Assembly (NCBI GenBank): GCA_013331575.1
Contig: DUGD01000008.1
Coordinates: 1-14,855, forward strand
DNA length: 14,855 nt
Direction: 5' to 3'
DNA from: Candidatus Woesearchaeota archaeon
Lineage (GTDB): Archaea > Nanobdellota > Nanobdellia > Woesearchaeales > UBA525
Part shown: piece by piece, positions 6,180-14,183 of the stretch
How the letters are laid out: each line of letters begins with the position of its first letter
Numbering within the stretch: position 1 is the first letter of the stretch
Position numbers and translations under genes: made by a program
Notes under the pieces: generated by a model
Databases searched by the model: none
Seen by the model: only the letters and a program-made list of their open reading frames with translations
What the model was told of the DNA's origin: nothing

Positions 6180-7484
6180 ATGAGACCATCAAAAAAGATA
6201 GCGGAAATCATTGCCGCGCAGCGCGCTGAAGAGGAGAGGCGACGAAAAGGTGACACGTCTATCTTTAGCGACAACCAAGAAGACACTATGGAACGTCCTC
6301 AACCGCCAGCAACTGCCCAACAATCCTCCATCATAACGCCTAACACCGACGAAGTCACTCGTCACATCAACCAAAAACCAATCTACTCGACAAGATCGTA
6401 CGAACAGGACCAACACGATAGGTGGACTCCGTTGAACGAGAGACCGACATATGCGAGCGAGTATCATAGACTACGAGCAGCAGAACGAGAAAAAAAACAA
6501 CGCATAGCGGAGGAGAGGGAACGAGCGATAGCGGAGCACATACGTGCTCAGAATAAACGCCAATTGAACAGGGGTTGCCTCACTATCGCAGGTTACATTC
6601 TCGCGCTCGCCACGTGGAATGGCTACACAAACAATCCTGTGAAATTCAACTCTGATAATATCAAACAGAAGACCGCGACGAGTGCACAGTGGGCAGGCGA
6701 CCTTGAATCGAAACTCAAGAGTGCACCGAACGTGCCTAAGCTCCCCGATGTCATCGAAACAAAATACGGTCCGCTCAAAACAAAAGACATCCCCTTCGAA
6801 GGCGATTTCGTAATCCACACGGAACGCTATAGCCTCATCAAGGATGAGGACAGCTGGCCCGAGCAGGCCATTGGCTTTGCCGGATCCATAAGCTCGCGTA
6901 TCTTCTTCTGGGATTCACGCATAGGCCATGGCACCGATAGCAGGGGCGCAAAACGCGTGCTCGCCATGCTCGAGAATGATAAGAGCATTGATGGACTCAC
7001 CGTCCGACTCAACCATAACCGTGCTCTCTATGACCTGTATCGCATCTTTAGCGATCCAGCACTTAAGGAACGCAACAATTGGCTCGCCCGTGCCGCAATA
7101 GGTATTCCGATGGCAGTAAAAGACGAGCTCTGGGCAGGTCTCTTCCGCGGCGCATACTACAATCCAATGAGTAAAACCGCGGTGAGCTACGCCGATATCG
7201 ACGCGATAACATTCCACGAAGTAGGACACGGCAAAGATTTCTCACGCTTCGACCAAGACTGGGTGTATAGTCTAAGCAGAATGATCCCGCCGGTCATGCT
7301 CTATCAAGAGGCGAAGGCGAGCATCTACGCAAAAGAGATGCTCGCGCCTGAAGAGAACTTCCAGTTCTATCGCTTCCTATTACCGGCATTCGGCACCTAT
7401 CTGCTCGTGACGTACGGTGCAACGAAACGCTTTGTGAAGCGACGCATCCTCGGCATTAGAGACGAGCAGGCGTCTGATATCTAG
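6180..7484 (+). CDS. Membrane-anchored HExxH zinc metalloprotease-like protein
   Basis: 434 residues. The N-terminal 130 are charged and partly coiled coil (RAAEREKKQRIAEERERAIA), followed by a TM helix (about 132-148, GCLTIAGYILALATW). The catalytic region carries ITFHEVGHGKDF: H346-E347-x-x-H350 is the zinc-protease motif. E377 in YQEAKAS, 27 residues later, is a good candidate for the third zinc ligand, as in gluzincins (compare ExxAD of M48). A second hydrophobic segment (about 397-411) near a basic C-terminus may re-anchor it. If the N-terminus is inside, the catalytic part faces outwards. The family is not recognised beyond the motif. It lies between a one-TM protein (49 nt before) and a Tat-like exported protein (23 nt after), probably one operon. 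An internal ATG at residue 37 is a possible alternative start. Confidence 0.82.
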   Translation: MRPSKKIAEIIAAQRAEEERRRKGDTSIFSDNQEDTMERPQPPATAQQSSIITPNTDEVTRHINQKPIYSTRSYEQDQHDRWTPLNERPTYASEYHRLRAAEREKKQRIAEERERAIAEHIRAQNKRQLNRGCLTIAGYILALATWNGYTNNPVKFNSDNIKQKTATSAQWAGDLESKLKSAPNVPKLPDVIETKYGPLKTKDIPFEGDFVIHTERYSLIKDEDSWPEQAIGFAGSISSRIFFWDSRIGHGTDSRGAKRVLAMLENDKSIDGLTVRLNHNRALYDLYRIFSDPALKERNNWLARAAIGIPMAVKDELWAGLFRGAYYNPMSKTAVSYADIDAITFHEVGHGKDFSRFDQDWVYSLSRMIPPVMLYQEAKASIYAKEMLAPEENFQFYRFLLPAFGTYLLVTYGATKRFVKRRILGIRDEQASDI

Positions 7485-7507: not shown

Positions 7508-8557
7508 ATGGACACGACCACCACGAGACGTGAGATGATCCGCATGCTAGGCTGCGGTATAGTGGGTATGCGTAGCGCGCGCGTGTTCCCAGGTCTGGAA
7601 TTCCCCATCACGCCGTCACGTACCCCGTATGATATCACCGAATATATGTGCACTGAACAGACGGCGAATGATCATCAGCACATAGCGTTCTCAGGCAGGA
7701 TGTTCGACGCCGATGCCCCTGTGCAGATCCTCCCGTACGGATACACCAAGACATATTGGACCGACGAGAGCAGAAAGCGCTTCGTCACGCTCAAGACCAA
7801 CCACGGCGGTCCGGTGGAGCTCATGGGTCTCGAGAACGGCCGCGTTCGTCTGTTCTACGAGGGCATGGACTGGAACGTCACGAAAAACAACGAATTCCGC
7901 GAGCATCACGATGAGAACGGAAATCCGAACTATGAACTCGCAAAGATCGTCACCAAACCGTACGAGTGGACATTCCCCAATATCAGCGACTTCAACTACA
8001 GGTACTGCGATGGAAGCGAGCCTGATCGCAGAGTGGAATTCCGCAGGTCAGGGCATTATATCACGCATGAGGTCGATCTGCTCAGAGACCTGAAAGGTGT
8101 CGAAGAGCTCTGCAGGACGTTCCAGACGACCATCGACGACTTTTGGGCGGGGCTGCCGAAACAGACCGGTCTCGGAGACGACCCGGTCATCATCGTGCGT
8201 GCGCATCATTGGAATCCGCTCAACTACAACCACCGGCCATTGCCGGAGGATTGGGGCGTCATCGAGACGTACTGGTACATGAAAGGCCACGGGCTCCTGC
8301 GCTGGCAATGGCTCGAGCACAAGAAGAGCGATGAACCGATGACGCTCAAGAAAGAGCTGACGCTCAACACACCGATCTTCGAGTTCGGCGATAATCGAGT
8401 GAAACACCTCGAACGATGTGAGCGTTATAACCCGCAAGGAACCGCGCAGACCGGCACGACAGAAGAGTCAGCTATCATCAGACCGTCATTCGGCCATATG
8501 CACCGGCTCACGTTGGAGCGGATGGCGCGAGAGCAAGGTCCGCGATCGCAGGAGTAG
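7508..8557 (+). CDS. Exported protein with Tat-like N-terminus, unknown function
   Basis: 349 residues. The N-terminus reads TRREMIRMLGCGIVGM: twin arginines R7-R8 with x-M-I-R resemble the Tat motif (S/T-R-R-x-F-L-K) and precede a weakly hydrophobic stretch, so export through Tat is plausible. No clear cleavage site follows. The body is soluble and rich in aromatic residues and histidine (VRAHHWNPLNYNHRPLP, YWYMKGHGLLRWQWLEHKK), with a beta-rich middle. The aromatic/His patch around 230-280 could be a ligand or metal site. I know no matching family. It is third in the cassette after the HEVGH protease (23-nt gap); the role may be as its substrate, partner or an independent surface enzyme. 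No terminator is obvious, and a structured RNA candidate follows about 180 nt later. Confidence 0.78.
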   Translation: MDTTTTRREMIRMLGCGIVGMRSARVFPGLEFPITPSRTPYDITEYMCTEQTANDHQHIAFSGRMFDADAPVQILPYGYTKTYWTDESRKRFVTLKTNHGGPVELMGLENGRVRLFYEGMDWNVTKNNEFREHHDENGNPNYELAKIVTKPYEWTFPNISDFNYRYCDGSEPDRRVEFRRSGHYITHEVDLLRDLKGVEELCRTFQTTIDDFWAGLPKQTGLGDDPVIIVRAHHWNPLNYNHRPLPEDWGVIETYWYMKGHGLLRWQWLEHKKSDEPMTLKKELTLNTPIFEFGDNRVKHLERCERYNPQGTAQTGTTEESAIIRPSFGHMHRLTLERMAREQGPRSQE

Positions 8558-9170: not shown

Positions 9171-9908
9171 ATGACAGATAATATGACACGGCAGCCCATG
9201 CGACCGCTCGCCATCATCTTCGACATGGACGGCCTCATGATCGATAGCGAACGGCATTACCGCGAGGTCCAGATAGAGATGGGGCGGAAACGCGGCGTCA
9301 AGTTGTCTCCCGAGATCTTCGGCCATATGATGGGACGCACGCCGATAGAGAGCTTGCGAGTCCTCAAAGAGGAGCTCCATCTGGACGATAGCGCAGAGGA
9401 CCTTCTCGCTGAGCGCACCGCCCTCATGCGAGAGCATATGCGACACGATGTGGCCCTCATGCCCGGTCTCAGGGAATGCCTCGACGCGTTCCACGGCAGG
9501 ATACCGATGGCCGTAGCGACGGGCAGCCAGCGAGAGTTCCTGATGATAATAGCGGAGCGATTCGACCTCGCGCGATACTTCGCGACGACCGTCACCGCTG
9601 ACGACGTGGAACGCGGCAAACCCGGCCCGGAGGTCTACGATAACACGGCGCGAAGACTCGGCGTCCCGCAAGATCGGTGCGTCGTCCTTGAAGACGCGGA
9701 GAACGGCTGCATCGCCGCGAAGCGTGCCGGGTGCTACTGCATCGCTGTGCCGAGCCCGTGGACCGGAACGCAGGATTTCAGCGTCGCGGATTACGTCGCG
9801 GAAGATCTTCTCGATGCCAAAACGCATATCGAACGCATGATGAACCCGTCGGGCTCTCCGCCACAACCGAGACGGGATGACGAGAAAGAGGAGGGAAAGA
9901 GACCATGA
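9171..9908 (+). CDS. HAD-superfamily phosphatase (beta-phosphoglucomutase/YniC-like)
   Basis: 245 residues with all HAD motifs. Motif I is FDMDGLMIDSE (nucleophile D18, acid/base D20), motif II VATGS (117-119), motif III lysine K150 in ERGKPGPEVY, and motif IV VLEDAENG (E174, D175) for magnesium. A helical C1-type cap lies between about residues 26 and 92. This arrangement is typical of beta-PGM-like phosphatases acting on sugar phosphates or related small molecules; the substrate cannot be read. About 20 extra C-terminal residues (PQPRRDDEKEEGKRP) are charged and probably disordered. ATG 9171 follows GGATGAT; M5 is an alternative. The stop overlaps the next start as ATGA, so it is coupled to the NlpC/P60-like gene. 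The protein is cytoplasmic. Confidence 0.92.
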   Translation: MTDNMTRQPMRPLAIIFDMDGLMIDSERHYREVQIEMGRKRGVKLSPEIFGHMMGRTPIESLRVLKEELHLDDSAEDLLAERTALMREHMRHDVALMPGLRECLDAFHGRIPMAVATGSQREFLMIIAERFDLARYFATTVTADDVERGKPGPEVYDNTARRLGVPQDRCVVLEDAENGCIAAKRAGCYCIAVPSPWTGTQDFSVADYVAEDLLDAKTHIERMMNPSGSPPQPRRDDEKEEGKRP

Positions 9909-11371
9909 CCCTCACAGAGATTGCAGCCCGCCTGTACACGTTGGAGTCGGAGGCGAAGACGACTGGGAACAGCGCTGACGCTGCTGCACGAGTGCTCATC
10001 GATACTCAGGCCACATCTCGCAATAATAGCAATACTGACCACCAGAGCGACGCACGAATCGGCAGTCAGGACATAGACCCTGCGCTGGCGATAAAGCGCT
10101 ACGAGACATTCGCGCGGGCAATCGAGAATTCTATCGCTATAGAGACAAAGTTTCTGTCTATGATCAGCGATGCAATGCAGCAAGAACGCAGATCGATAGC
10201 GTCGATCGCGCGGACGTACCCAGACGTCGCCGATGCAGCGCGGGATATTGAAGCACGCGCCGAAGCAAGCATGAAAGAGAACCCGCATCCAGAGCGACCG
10301 ATCACAGAGATATTCGCGCAACGATACCCGAACGACGATGGATCGCCTGCGCGAAAGCTCGAAGAGTCGCTCTATGCCATCATCGCTTTGCTCATGGCGC
10401 GCCGCGATTCACAAGGGAGGATCGCGCGCCTCGCAGCGCTATCGCGTACCACACCGCGCGGGATGTCGAACATCAGATGGCATACAAAAAAGGCCACCGA
10501 CGCCGAGAGAGCGATCGACACCCGCTCGAAGGACATCACGGCACAAGTGTCGCGCGCGCAGCATCGTGCCGCAAGGGACGCGCGAGAAGGCGCCGCCAGC
10601 GCAGGGCAAGGCATCTTCAGTCGAACAAAACGGCTCATAGCAGGCATACTCCTCGGGGCATCGATGATCGGCGGAGCACAGCAAGCCGACGCGTCATCGA
10701 GAATGCTGCCCGGGATACGCCAGAATTTCACCGCCGCGATAAAGGGGGTCACTGTCGACGGCGAGTCGTGCGCGCGGTGGACCCGTGAGGCGCTCGACCG
10801 CGGCTTCAAGATGGGGACGGACCGCCTCGCATGGCAGTACGGGGTCACTGGCGACGCCTGGACCATGTTCGGCAATCTCACCATGGACGGGCCGATGTCG
10901 AAAGGAAACAACGTCCTGTACAACGCTTTCCAGAACCATCGTTTCAGCGTTCAATTGCGGGATGCGCTCCGACCGTTCGGATCCCACACGCAAGAGAGCA
11001 TCAAGGCGTACCCTGTGCTCAGCGCTTCGCTGCAAAAGGAGATGCCGCGCGGATTGTCGTTCTCCGAGTTGAGCGGTCTCCGGTCCAGGCTGCGCCCGGG
11101 GATGGTCGTCGGAATATACAATACAAAAAGCCGTCACCAAGTACGTGCCTTCAATGATTCTATCGCATGGGCTGAGCAGAACGAACGGCAAGATGCCGTA
11201 ACACCGACGACGCATGTGGCCATCATCACCGGTGTCGGGAAACAGGTGATGGTCTCCCATTGGGCCGGCGGGAAGGTCGTTATCGAATCGCTCGAGTCGA
11301 TGATCGCGAGCGGACGGTACAGGATCTGCTGGATAGTCGATGTCGCTTCCCAACGTGGCATGAGAGCGTGA
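9905..11371 (+). CDS. Membrane-anchored NlpC/P60- or CHAP-like cysteine hydrolase
   Basis: 488 residues. The N-terminal 240 are helical, Ala/Arg-rich and probably coiled coil. A TM or signal-anchor segment follows (about 243-259, RLIAGILLGASMIGGAQ) with AQQADASS after it. The C-terminal domain has GESCARWTREAL (C289 at a helix N-terminus), RPGMVVGIYN (about 397-406) and THVAIITGVGKQVMVSHW (H437, H452). That order, catalytic Cys then strand with His, is the pattern of NlpC/P60 and CHAP papain-fold amidases that cut peptide bonds in bacterial cell walls. The Cys-to-His distance (148) is longer than usual, implying an insertion. The ATG overlaps the HAD stop (ATGA), as in coupled genes. It converges on the amidase/transglycosylase pair. 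Family assignment is by pattern only; another papain-fold hydrolase is possible. Confidence 0.7.
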   Translation: MTLTEIAARLYTLESEAKTTGNSADAAARVLIDTQATSRNNSNTDHQSDARIGSQDIDPALAIKRYETFARAIENSIAIETKFLSMISDAMQQERRSIASIARTYPDVADAARDIEARAEASMKENPHPERPITEIFAQRYPNDDGSPARKLEESLYAIIALLMARRDSQGRIARLAALSRTTPRGMSNIRWHTKKATDAERAIDTRSKDITAQVSRAQHRAARDAREGAASAGQGIFSRTKRLIAGILLGASMIGGAQQADASSRMLPGIRQNFTAAIKGVTVDGESCARWTREALDRGFKMGTDRLAWQYGVTGDAWTMFGNLTMDGPMSKGNNVLYNAFQNHRFSVQLRDALRPFGSHTQESIKAYPVLSASLQKEMPRGLSFSELSGLRSRLRPGMVVGIYNTKSRHQVRAFNDSIAWAEQNERQDAVTPTTHVAIITGVGKQVMVSHWAGGKVVIESLESMIASGRYRICWIVDVASQRGMRA

Positions 11372-11405
11372 CTGTTTCGTTCATCGCGTATTCCTAGTAT
11401 TGCGC

Positions 11406-12338
11406 CTAACGATGTAGATACGCCAGCACTCCCTCGCGGATAGCGCCGGCGGTCATCATCCTCCGCGTTCCCAGGAGAGCCTCTTCATGCGGATTCGCAA
11501 TGTTGCCGCACTCGACGAGCACGGCAGGGACTCTCGCGTTCTCGAGCACGTAGAAATCGGACGCATAGACGCCGTTCTGCCTGTCGATCGACACCTTGTG
11601 CTGCGCTTGCGCTCCTTTCGTGTAGTAGAGCGATGGTTTGAGGCCGTATTCCCGCATCGCCCTGCCGATGGATCTGGCGAGGAGCGCGCTTTCGCTTGCG
11701 CATAACGAGTTCCCGCTGTAGAACACCGAGTAGCCGGAGAGTACGTCCCACGCCTTGCGGGCGACATCATTCGCGAACCCCGTGTCATGGTGCAGCTCCA
11801 CGTACACTTGCGCCCCGCGCTCCATCGGAAGCCCCGGTCGTCTGCGCAGAGAGAGATCGAGCGATGAAAGCAGATAGAGGGCGTTCGACTTTTCAGTCGC
11901 TCGCTTGATGGCCTCGAGAAGGAGATCGTTGTACACGTGCTCTCGGACGCCGGTCGCTGAGAAAGCGCCTTTGTTCTCAGTGTTCCGAGTGTGCCCTGCA
12001 ATGTAGAGGACGCGCGCATCGAGCGATCGCAGCACAGGGCGTGAAGATGCTGTCGCTGCCGGATGAGGGTCTGTGGCGGGCAAGCGATGCGATGGTGTCG
12101 GGCCCGCCGCATTGGTGCGACTGATAGGCATCGATGGTTGCGCGGAAGGTATATTTCTCGACGCGATCGGTCTTTTCAGTTCCGCAGTGAGCAACGATCC
12201 TGCAGCCGGTTGCGACACTCGTGGTTCTTGCCTCTCGCGTATGCGCAGTCTATCCGGGGAAGGATGCTGTTGTGGCGCGGTGGAGCAGGCGGCGAACAAC
12301 GCCGCCATTGCGATGCTCACCACCGCGTTGCGTCTCAT
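11406..12338 (-). CDS. N-acetylmuramoyl-L-alanine amidase (Amidase_3), lipoprotein-like
   Basis: 310 residues from ATG 12338, which overlaps the upstream stop as ATGA and follows GAGG. The N-terminus is a short signal with a lipobox-like LFAAC (C18), then about 80 Pro/Ser/Ala-rich residues as a wall-spanning linker. The catalytic domain (about 108-310) has H116 in IAGHT, E133 in GVREHVYND and H183 in YVELHHD as zinc ligands, and E276 in VLVECGNIAN as the catalytic glutamate. This is the full Amidase_3 set. Such zinc amidases cut the MurNAc-L-Ala bond of bacterial murein. It is the second gene of a two-gene leftward operon with the lytic transglycosylase. In an archaeon the likely target is another organism's wall. 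Bacterial origin by transfer is plausible, but base composition looks like its neighbours. Confidence 0.9.
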   Translation of the reverse strand: MRRNAVVSIAMAALFAACSTAPQQHPSPDRLRIRERQEPRVSQPAAGSLLTAELKRPIASRNIPSAQPSMPISRTNAAGPTPSHRLPATDPHPAATASSRPVLRSLDARVLYIAGHTRNTENKGAFSATGVREHVYNDLLLEAIKRATEKSNALYLLSSLDLSLRRRPGLPMERGAQVYVELHHDTGFANDVARKAWDVLSGYSVFYSGNSLCASESALLARSIGRAMREYGLKPSLYYTKGAQAQHKVSIDRQNGVYASDFYVLENARVPAVLVECGNIANPHEEALLGTRRMMTAGAIREGVLAYLHR

Positions 12339-13168
12339 GGCACACGCCTCGGTAGCGTCCTGTACTTCGAGATCCCGAACTGGCAAGCGTTCTGTTTGTG
12401 AGCGATATCCAGGTAACGGGCGTAGGTGAGCGGTTTGCCATCCACCACGAGCGATCTGTTGCGCGCGTCGAAGTCGGCTGCGAGTTCTGTGAGATAATCA
12501 TCATCCGACGACAATCTCGCGAAGCGGGTCACTTTCGAGGGGTATGATCTCCTTCCCGCATATCGGCGCAGCGCCGCGTCCCAGCTTCCTGTACGTTGGT
12601 AGTGGTCGGCGAGCATGCGCGCCGCTGCGTCGACGTTCTTCACCGGGTGCCAACGGTCGTCGTGCGCGGTCAGATCAACGAGGTCGTAGTTCATCTCGCG
12701 CAGTATGCGGTTGATCCTCTTGCCTTGGTTGAAGTCGCGCAGCTTGCGCGAGTTCGTTATCATCCTGAGGCCGTATGCGTTCGTGAGCAGAGGCTGCATG
12801 TGTATGAGCCCGAGGCCTGCGTCGCCTATCAAGTTGGGTAACGTGGGATCGCCCATGCTCTCTTGCGCGACCATACCAAGCAAGTAACCGTCAGGTATGC
12901 CGTATCGGTGCTCAACGGCGTCGGTGATATCTTCCCATCGCAGGGAACGCTCCATGCGTCCGCGGTCGCTGAACGAATTGTGCAGCCGTACGCCACGTAG
13001 GCTAGGGCTTTCGCACTCCTTGACGGGAAGATTCGGAGGGCTTAGCTTTGCGTAGTTTGTCCTGCGTTTCGACGGGTTGGAGTGTCTGCGTAGTGTCGTG
13101 TCATCGCTGCAGTCGTACGTCGATGCCGCGAGGAGCAGCGCCAACGCAAGGCTCTTTAGACTCTTCAT
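12335..13168 (-). CDS. Secreted SLT-type lytic transglycosylase
   Basis: 277 residues from ATG 13168, preferred because it gives a clean Sec signal (MKSLKSLALALLLAAS); in-frame GTG 13201 and ATG 13192 are alternatives. The lysozyme-like domain (about 78-207) shows the SLT order. A helix ITDAVEHRYGIPDGYLLGMV leads into AQES, with E103 as catalytic acid. GDAGLGLIHMQP (115-126) follows, matching the GxxGLMQ-P segment, then NVDAAARMLADHY and a YAG (203-205) resembling the family's YNaG. These enzymes cleave the MurNAc-GlcNAc glycan of murein, leaving 1,6-anhydroMurNAc. The C-terminal 70 residues have no recognised domain. The TGA overlaps the amidase ATG, so glycan- and peptide-cutting enzymes are co-translated. 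Confidence 0.88.
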   Translation of the reverse strand: MKSLKSLALALLLAASTYDCSDDTTLRRHSNPSKRRTNYAKLSPPNLPVKECESPSLRGVRLHNSFSDRGRMERSLRWEDITDAVEHRYGIPDGYLLGMVAQESMGDPTLPNLIGDAGLGLIHMQPLLTNAYGLRMITNSRKLRDFNQGKRINRILREMNYDLVDLTAHDDRWHPVKNVDAAARMLADHYQRTGSWDAALRRYAGRRSYPSKVTRFARLSSDDDYLTELAADFDARNRSLVVDGKPLTYARYLDIAHKQNACQFGISKYRTLPRRVP

Positions 13169-13229
13169 GGTGGATGGTTGTTGCTGTAGCATGGATATCA
13201 CGGTAGTGTTCGTTAGTAGGTATCGTCAT

Positions 13230-13272
13230 TCGAGGTATTTATGACTACTCGAAAGTAAGTAATATTTATAAA
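13230..13272. promoter_or_regulatory. Divergent promoter between transglycosylase and methyltransferase
   Basis: The palindromic TTTATAAA (13265-13272) can serve both directions. Rightward it predicts a start near 13295 and a leader of about 50 nt to ATG 13347. Leftward, a second box (ATAAATA, 13236-13242 on the minus strand) predicts a start near 13213. That box is flanked by an inverted TCGAG/CTCGA pair (13230-13234 and 13248-13252), a possible operator. Confidence 0.45.
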
Positions 13273-13346
13273 GGTTGTGCGGCCACTATCTTTCAAACAC
13301 AGCTCAGCACGCACAGGAAGAGCAGAGCGACACTACGAGGACCTGC

Positions 13347-14183
13347 ATGCCAAAAAGCGCCGATCTCCTACAAAGGATGGCCACATACGGGACTATGAAG
13401 ACGCCCACCCGTGCAGAGTACGAGGACGCGTGCAAACGCGGCGTGACGCTGCTGCGCACAGCATGCCTCCGCGCGCCAGGAGAGCAATCCGACGATATGC
13501 ATCGGCAGCTCTTCCTTCTCGAACGCGTTCGTCGCGTACACATCCTGAGGACGTTGCGCCATGAATTCGGATTCCGCACAGAGAACGTCCTTGAGTGCGG
13601 CGCCGCAGGGAACGTCACCGTGCCGATGGCATATGTGGACGCACGATGCATCGCTCTCGACATGAGTCTCGGCGTCTTCGCCAACGAGACCAACTATTTC
13701 GACGACCTGCCGGTCGGAAGCTTCGCGACAGGGATATCGACGGCGGGCAAACGCGCCATCGACGAACGTCTATCCAACCACCATAGGATCGTGGGCGACG
13801 CGAAGGCTATTCCGCTCAACAACGACTCCATTGATACGGTGATCGTGTTCAACGAACCGTTCCTCTTCAAGAAAGCCGCTCCGGAAGCGACGCGGGTGCT
13901 CAAAGCGGGCGGATACTTGATCAATATCATCGATAATCTCAAGCAGAGCGATAAGCGGTCGTTCTACACGGCGCGCTCGTACCGCACGAAGAACAAGTGC
14001 GACGCGTTCTCACCCACCAATGGACTGCGCGGCATGATGAAGATCGAGCTCCCGCCCTGGCTGCGCGCGTACGAGTTCTCGCCATATACCGATATCGACG
14101 GAACGCGATGGTACACGGGCGACCTCTTTGAAGTCTTCATGAAACCCGGACAAGCAGCCGCTACAGATCATAAGACGCTATAG
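13347..14183 (+). CDS. Divergent SAM-dependent methyltransferase-like protein
   Basis: 278 residues from ATG 13347, chosen because GAGG lies six bases after the site ACTAC and before ACCTGC-ATG; the frame extends to a TTG at 13275 without support. A helical N-terminus (1-75) precedes a Rossmann-type core. VLECGAAGNV (81-90) stands for motif I (normally D/ExGxGxG), D105 in CIALDMS is a candidate ribose ligand, GDAKAIPLNNDSIDTVIV (150-167) resembles the class I motif II region, and VLKAGGYLINI (184-194) the post-motif III strand. This is the layout of Methyltransf_11-like enzymes. The broken glycine pattern in motif I means cofactor binding is uncertain. Substrate unknown. The gene is transcribed away from the transglycosylase/amidase operon across a short shared promoter. 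Confidence 0.68.
   Translation: MPKSADLLQRMATYGTMKTPTRAEYEDACKRGVTLLRTACLRAPGEQSDDMHRQLFLLERVRRVHILRTLRHEFGFRTENVLECGAAGNVTVPMAYVDARCIALDMSLGVFANETNYFDDLPVGSFATGISTAGKRAIDERLSNHHRIVGDAKAIPLNNDSIDTVIVFNEPFLFKKAAPEATRVLKAGGYLINIIDNLKQSDKRSFYTARSYRTKNKCDAFSPTNGLRGMMKIELPPWLRAYEFSPYTDIDGTRWYTGDLFEVFMKPGQAAATDHKTL

Follow-up and report, generated by a model that had tools for sequence, protein, structure and literature searches.

A candidate two-enzyme module for cutting bacterial murein in a Woesearchaeota archaeon

Archaeal enzymes that may act on bacterial cell walls have been described in several studies. Castelle et al. (2021) reported large murein-like lytic transglycosylase proteins (fam00969) in Woesearchaeota and Pacearchaeota, which may act on bacterial walls (PMC8204110). 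Vigneron et al. (2022) proposed predatory, "vampiristic" Woesearchaeota of Lake A with GH23 transglycosylases (PMC9723730). Strock et al. (2025) found that 175 of 3,706 archaeal genomes encode peptidoglycan hydrolases, prominently those of Nanoarchaeota, under a definition that requires a wall-binding domain beside the catalytic domain; two haloarchaeal enzymes were shown to kill a bacterium (PMC12352652). The idea of archaeal attack on bacterial walls was restated in PMC10936187 and PMC11537232. In this study, a 14,855-base stretch of DNA from a Candidatus Woesearchaeota archaeon (the window) was analyzed, which forms the first part of the 32,693-base contig DUGD01000008.1. It carries two overlapping genes, one for an SLT (GH23-type) lytic transglycosylase-like protein and one for an Amidase_3 (zinc N-acetylmuramoyl-L-alanine amidase-like) protein. 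From its sequence, the pair is fairly probably a secreted two-enzyme module by which the archaeon cuts bacterial murein.

The overlapping gene pair and its proteins

The SLT gene (12335..13168, reverse strand) encodes 277 residues, and the amidase gene (11406..12338, reverse strand) encodes 310 residues. The amidase start codon ATG (12338-12336) and the SLT stop codon TGA (12337-12335) share bases and form ATGA at 12335..12338 on the reverse strand. An earlier note on this DNA had described this overlap, and its coordinates and frame were correct. ATGA overlaps are common among genes, and this one only suggests translational coupling of the SLT and amidase genes, which falls short of the fixed translation ratio put forward in the earlier note. 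The palindrome TTTATAAA (13265..13272), which resembles an archaeal TATA box and may act as one, lies between the operon and a divergent methyltransferase-like gene, 97 bases upstream of the SLT start. The sole other copy in the window is 70 bases upstream of the gene for the TATA-binding protein (TBP). The pattern TTTATAWA had four strand matches at two sites in the window; shuffled sequences averaged 0.16 matches, and four were reached in 1 of 200 shuffles. No sigma-70 promoter was found by a scan of positions 11300-13500, as expected for an archaeon.

The SLT protein matched PF01464 far above chance (E 3.8e-7; 30.1 bits against a curated cut-off of 21.3). QES is found at residue 102 and GDAGLGLIHMQP begins at residue 115, which gives E103 as the catalytic Glu. 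The N-terminus is hydrophobic and of the secretion type, so that export is likely. The predicted structure had a pLDDT of 90.4. The top Foldseek match of this model was MltE at E 4.6e-3, with nothing at E ≤ 0.001, and the top VIA-align matches were MltF, MltD, and MltE, with a chitinase and a cellulase also among the fold matches. In the alignment, counted by hand, position 64 of MltE chain 3t36_A fell opposite E103. The model points to a lysozyme-like fold with a catalytic Glu, as in members of the SLT family. A phmmer search of the PDB with the single SLT sequence gave just two NusG matches, at chance level. GLMQ is a motif of SLT or GH23-type lytic transglycosylases. The window protein has GLIHMQP, which appears to be a variant of this motif; H123, M124, and Q125 were invariant across 27 sequences.

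The amidase matched PF01520 far above chance (E 1.7e-17; 64.5 bits against a curated cut-off of 27), and its profile matched the 7agm, 7agl, and Rv3717 amidases across the whole domain. H116, E133, H183, and E276, which by homology we take to be three zinc ligands and the catalytic Glu, were all retained in the relatives P0031-P0033; the first His of the bacterial P0034 was out of register in the alignment. The five residues named by the earlier note (E103 and these four) were all present when the numbering was checked by script, and its view that both proteins have intact catalytic residues was borne out. By a lenient pattern devised for the present analysis, residues 15-18 of the amidase form a lipobox-like FAAC, with IAAC, LAGC, and AASC at the corresponding position in its three nearest relatives. 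The lipobox-like N-terminus and the PF01520 match agree, at the level of sequence, with the lipoprotein-like Amidase_3 claimed before, and from this N-terminus the amidase looks membrane-anchored.

Host genome, relatives, and gene linkage

The genome has 1.63 Mb and is 74.6% complete. The best match of the TBP gene on the contig was 90% identical and came from a same-genus genome. The contig also has an MCM helicase gene (PF00493, E 6.3e-94) and encodes a SAMP2/ThiS-like small protein. The TBP and MCM genes bear out the earlier note's placing of the pair in an archaeal genome. Contaminating bacterial DNA or a chimeric contig would explain that the best-named families of the pair are bacterial, and that three other same-genus genomes are without relatives of the amidase or of a third gene, which is convergent with the pair. 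The codon use of the pair was also the least similar to MCM and TBP among the contig genes compared, with a correlation of 0.57 for both SLT and amidase and 0.62-0.76 for six other genes. However, TBP and MCM lie on the same contig, TTTATAAA stands upstream of TBP as well as of the present operon, the nearest named SLT relatives are from Woesearchaeota, and relatives of the pair and of the third gene were each placed on a 31,291-base contig. A chimeric bacterial segment, which the earlier note had named as what could overturn it, is disfavored by TBP, MCM, the SLT tree, and this probable second contig, and contamination is very unlikely, to the point of being hardly credible. Later acquisition of the pair by the genome is possible, since its codon-use correlation is below that of the six other genes.

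Counting the window's own proteins, protein searches gave 29 SLT, 5 amidase, and 3 third-protein sequences. P0003 (SLT), P0032 (amidase), and P0037 (third protein) were each assigned to a 31,291-base contig, and P0031 (amidase) and P0036 (third protein) each to a 2,942-base contig. This suggests, but does not prove, that the former three lie on one contig and the latter two on another. The ends and starts of the relatives on the 31,291-base contig would be compatible with the same ATGA overlap. At another Woesearchaeota locus (L016), an amidase relative (41% over 130 residues; PF01520 E 1.6e-21) is divergent to an SLT gene; its lipobox-like signal is in a different frame, immediately upstream, at a run of A. 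Genome G020 encodes a 2508-residue protein (L075:1535-9061, reverse strand) in which the two domains of the pair are fused, SLT lying close to the N-terminus and Amidase_3 at the C-terminal end. In genome G202, Amidase_3, M23, and SLT genes form one cluster. SLT and amidase were associated in four arrangements, overlapping (window), divergent (L016), fused (G020), and clustered (G202). The recurrence that the earlier note had asked about was found as an association, on the 31,291-base contig assignments and in the divergent neighbors of L016. At a further Woesearchaeota locus, a beta-lactamase-like serine hydrolase with an export-type N-terminus is divergent to the SLT gene (L028:8001-9053, reverse strand), so that this SLT family is seen there with another kind of partner.

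The SLT domain was found in 124 of 261 genomes of the phylum and Amidase_3 in 28 of 261, with both in 15; the counts come from two draws of 261 genomes taken as one set. Genome-wide co-occurrence in this set did not exceed chance (15/28 versus 124/261, Fisher p 0.55). The two domains were physically linked in at least 3 of the 15 genomes with both, namely G020, G202, and G000, which is the window itself. Among the matches listed (25 of 110 families), no general partner family was seen for the neighbors of SLT genes, covering up to two open frames per side at 21 loci (77 proteins). When relatives of the window SLT protein were sought in 279 genomes, 19 matches were obtained, own included. A relative of the amidase was not found in the other 57 genomes searched, nor one of the third protein in the other 143 genomes searched. 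Because relatives of the pair and of the third protein are rare and SLT domains widespread, the pair module is regarded as an accessory trait on top of a widespread habit.

The SLT tree was a quick one of 52 rows, rooted at the midpoint only. The clade of the window protein had 21 rows (SH-aLRT 95), 4 from archaeal bins and 17 unlabelled. A Bacteroidota-rich clade also had 21 rows (support 99), 9 from bacterial bins (7 of Bacteroidota) and 12 unlabelled. Ten more archaeal rows fell outside both clades, six of them with long branches. To the earlier note's question of whether the pair clusters with bacterial or archaeal homologues, the tree answered in part: the window SLT protein lies with Woesearchaeota rows in a clade adjoining the Bacteroidota-rich one. 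In the archaeal SLT clade (P0001-P0017), 7 of 17 proteins matched a simple twin-arginine pattern and P0015-P0017 were without a hydrophobic N-terminus; because of such N-terminal features, export is likely for most of them. P0017 has an SLT-like N-terminal half followed by a TsaD/Kae1 domain in one frame, either a true fusion or an assembly error.

A gene for a bifunctional penicillin-binding protein (PBP) adjoined the SLT gene in 2 of 9 bacterial loci, which favors murein as the substrate of the bacterial relatives. It also speaks against the reading that the substrate is the envelope of the archaeon itself or another non-murein glycan, such as an S-layer glycan or a chitin-like polymer. For that reading are the altered motifs GLIHMQP and IAGHT, the chitinase and cellulase matches of the SLT fold, and the separate clade of the archaeal SLT sequences. 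Against it, the adjoining amidase and transglycosylase target two neighboring bonds known together in murein, and action on a non-murein glycan is judged improbable.

The pair was also considered as an integrated or captured viral cassette for lysis or entry. Phage lysis, tail, and internal virion proteins often contain SLT and amidase domains, the pair matched such PHROG families, and loose amidase relatives were encoded by 43 viral contigs. However, phage-record matches spanned no more than 45% of the SLT protein and 15% of the amidase, and among ten window proteins scanned only the pair matched, the eight others having no PHROG match below E 0.01. IMG/VR scans, which are pattern-based and can miss relatives, gave no relative of the SLT or third protein. 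A viral origin of this kind is highly improbable. A phage gene neighborhood was rejected, as the Pfam matches of the HAD, TBP, and methyltransferase genes are cellular.

Substrate and proposed mechanism

Murein synthesis was sought in nine genomes, own included. A Mur ligase was not found in the own genome, which is 74.6% complete; four of the nine genomes matched, three of them above the cut-off, and the Mur ligase family search also matched in two control archaea. PBP transpeptidase and FtsW/RodA were each found in 0 of 9, and their absence holds in relatives up to 99% complete. Since no Mur ligase, PBP transpeptidase, or FtsW/RodA was found in this incomplete genome, own murein is an unlikely substrate, and a bacterial substrate is the best inference for the pair because these three murein-synthesis families are missing. 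Murein is likely to be the substrate, and use against bacteria is probable.

In the proposed mechanism, the transglycosylase would cleave the MurNAc-GlcNAc bond of the glycan strands and give 1,6-anhydro ends. The lipobox-like N-terminus of the amidase would place this enzyme on the outer surface of the archaeon, where it would free stem peptides at the MurNAc-L-Ala bond. Acting together on contact, the two enzymes would breach the bacterial wall locally and so serve feeding, attachment, or antagonism. We infer export, activity, substrate, contact dependence, and purpose in this scheme. The results suggest that the archaeon feeds on, attaches to, or attacks neighboring bacteria. The earlier note had called the pair a secreted weapon or entry tool against bacteria. 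Its bacterial target agrees with the best inference on the substrate, but weapon, entry tool, and feeding are inseparable from sequence. Since the amidase looks membrane-anchored, a diffusible weapon is judged somewhat less likely than local opening of the wall for feeding or attachment, though the argument is weak.

Two further wall-hydrolase proteins are encoded by the same genome. The first, of 1335 residues, combines Amidase_2, M23, and SLT (contig C62, L045:4311-8318, forward strand), and its gene sits in a gene run whose products, as read, start with pilin-like membrane segments. It had long matches in three other same-genus genomes and, counting the own genome, was matched in 24 of the 38 genomes searched, often via short segments. 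The second, of 1142 residues, combines SLT and DUF2272 (contig C10, L044:1496-4924, reverse strand). Its gene adjoins one for a 981-residue protein with seemingly several membrane segments, and the L044 genes might be part of a secretion-like machine. From their N-termini, the large multi-domain hydrolases look membrane-anchored.

The same enzyme set would be needed for scavenging only, in which murein of dead bacteria or shed fragments is digested for amino acids and sugars and living cells are not attacked. Scavenging is expected where a genome is small and its biosynthesis limited, and dead-bacterial murein was proposed as an amino acid source in PMC11537232. The large hydrolases, with their membrane-anchored look, seem suited to contact with intact walls, which is not decisive against scavenging, and this reading is given a minor but real chance. 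A wider reading is held tentatively, with rather more doubt than belief. The Woesearchaeota lineage may live on bacteria by means of at least four wall-digesting proteins (the SLT and amidase pair, the Amidase_2, M23, and SLT protein, and the SLT and DUF2272 protein), some of them surface-anchored, which would open the wall of a bacterial host or prey on contact. If true, the partner of this DPANN-type archaeon would be a bacterium and not another archaeon. It is an open question whether bacteria serve some DPANN-type archaea as hosts or prey. Giant multi-domain proteins are much harder to produce and assay than a short overlapping two-gene unit with well-defined catalytic residues, which makes this question directly testable.

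Neighboring genes and comparison with known systems

The third gene of the neighborhood (9905..11371, forward strand) encodes 488 residues with no family match. Identity with the relatives P0036 and P0037 was 78% overall and 85% in residues 250-488. Cys289 and His437 are conserved in the C-terminal part, which may, by a weak inference, be a cysteine hydrolase. The structure predicted from three sequences was of low confidence, with a pLDDT of 42.8. A profile search of the PDB gave one match at E 1.4, taken as chance, and comparison with the SLT and DUF2272 protein gave no match. No 19-residue window of the third protein exceeded a mean hydropathy of 1.2.

A Padloc defense scan of five window proteins gave no match, nor did searches of the window for Rfam families (at the gathering threshold) and for tRNAs. 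The genes at 7508-8557 (forward strand) and L043:5178-6380 (reverse strand) of the same contig are paralogues of no known family, and the latter product starts with a signal-like stretch. Their identity was 33% over 236 residues, measured on a copy truncated at the end of L036. The products of 6180-7484 (forward strand) and L043:17758-18693 (forward strand) have one HEVGH motif each and are possible metalloproteases, with no Pfam match over the cut-off. Positions 1-2700 have only short or overlapping open frames, judged unconvincing, and no Rfam match.

The SLT protein shares its fold and catalytic Glu position with MltE/MltD/MltF-type lytic transglycosylases and differs from them in its identity of about 15%, GLIHMQP motif, and archaeal host. 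The amidase matches Rv3717-type Amidase_3 proteins across the whole domain by profile and, as in them, no wall-binding domain was found; it differs in its IAGHT first-ligand motif, lipobox-like N-terminus, and archaeal host, and its 34.9 bits in the Rv3717 NCBIfam were far under the cut-off of 335.

Compared by description only, fam00969 has an SLT-type domain, occurs in the same archaeal groups, and has been proposed to bind or degrade bacterial walls; its proteins reach 3,000 residues, whereas the window's SLT protein has 277, is single-domain, and overlaps an amidase gene (PMC8204110). The Lake A study has the same idea of Woesearchaeota degrading bacterial murein. The word amidase does not occur in its main text, and its case, as presented there, leans also on the toxin gene tlyC (PMC9723730). 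The definition given by Strock et al. (PMC12352652) would miss the pair, because each window protein has one catalytic domain and Pfam shows no wall-binding domain in either, up to E 0.1. Surveys that require such a domain would overlook enzymes of this kind.

No description of an overlapping transglycosylase-amidase pair in an archaeon was found in the open PMC literature, with subscription papers mostly outside that scope. The finding is less surprising than the earlier note supposed, since 124 of the 261 genomes examined in the phylum have SLT domains and such archaea had been proposed in earlier papers to attack bacterial walls. Murein transglycosylases and hydrolases of archaea, and their proposed use against bacteria, were already known; the short paired form, the lipobox-like amidase, and the conserved third gene are new. 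The arrangement is real, well-formed, and unusual, and it is of a known kind.
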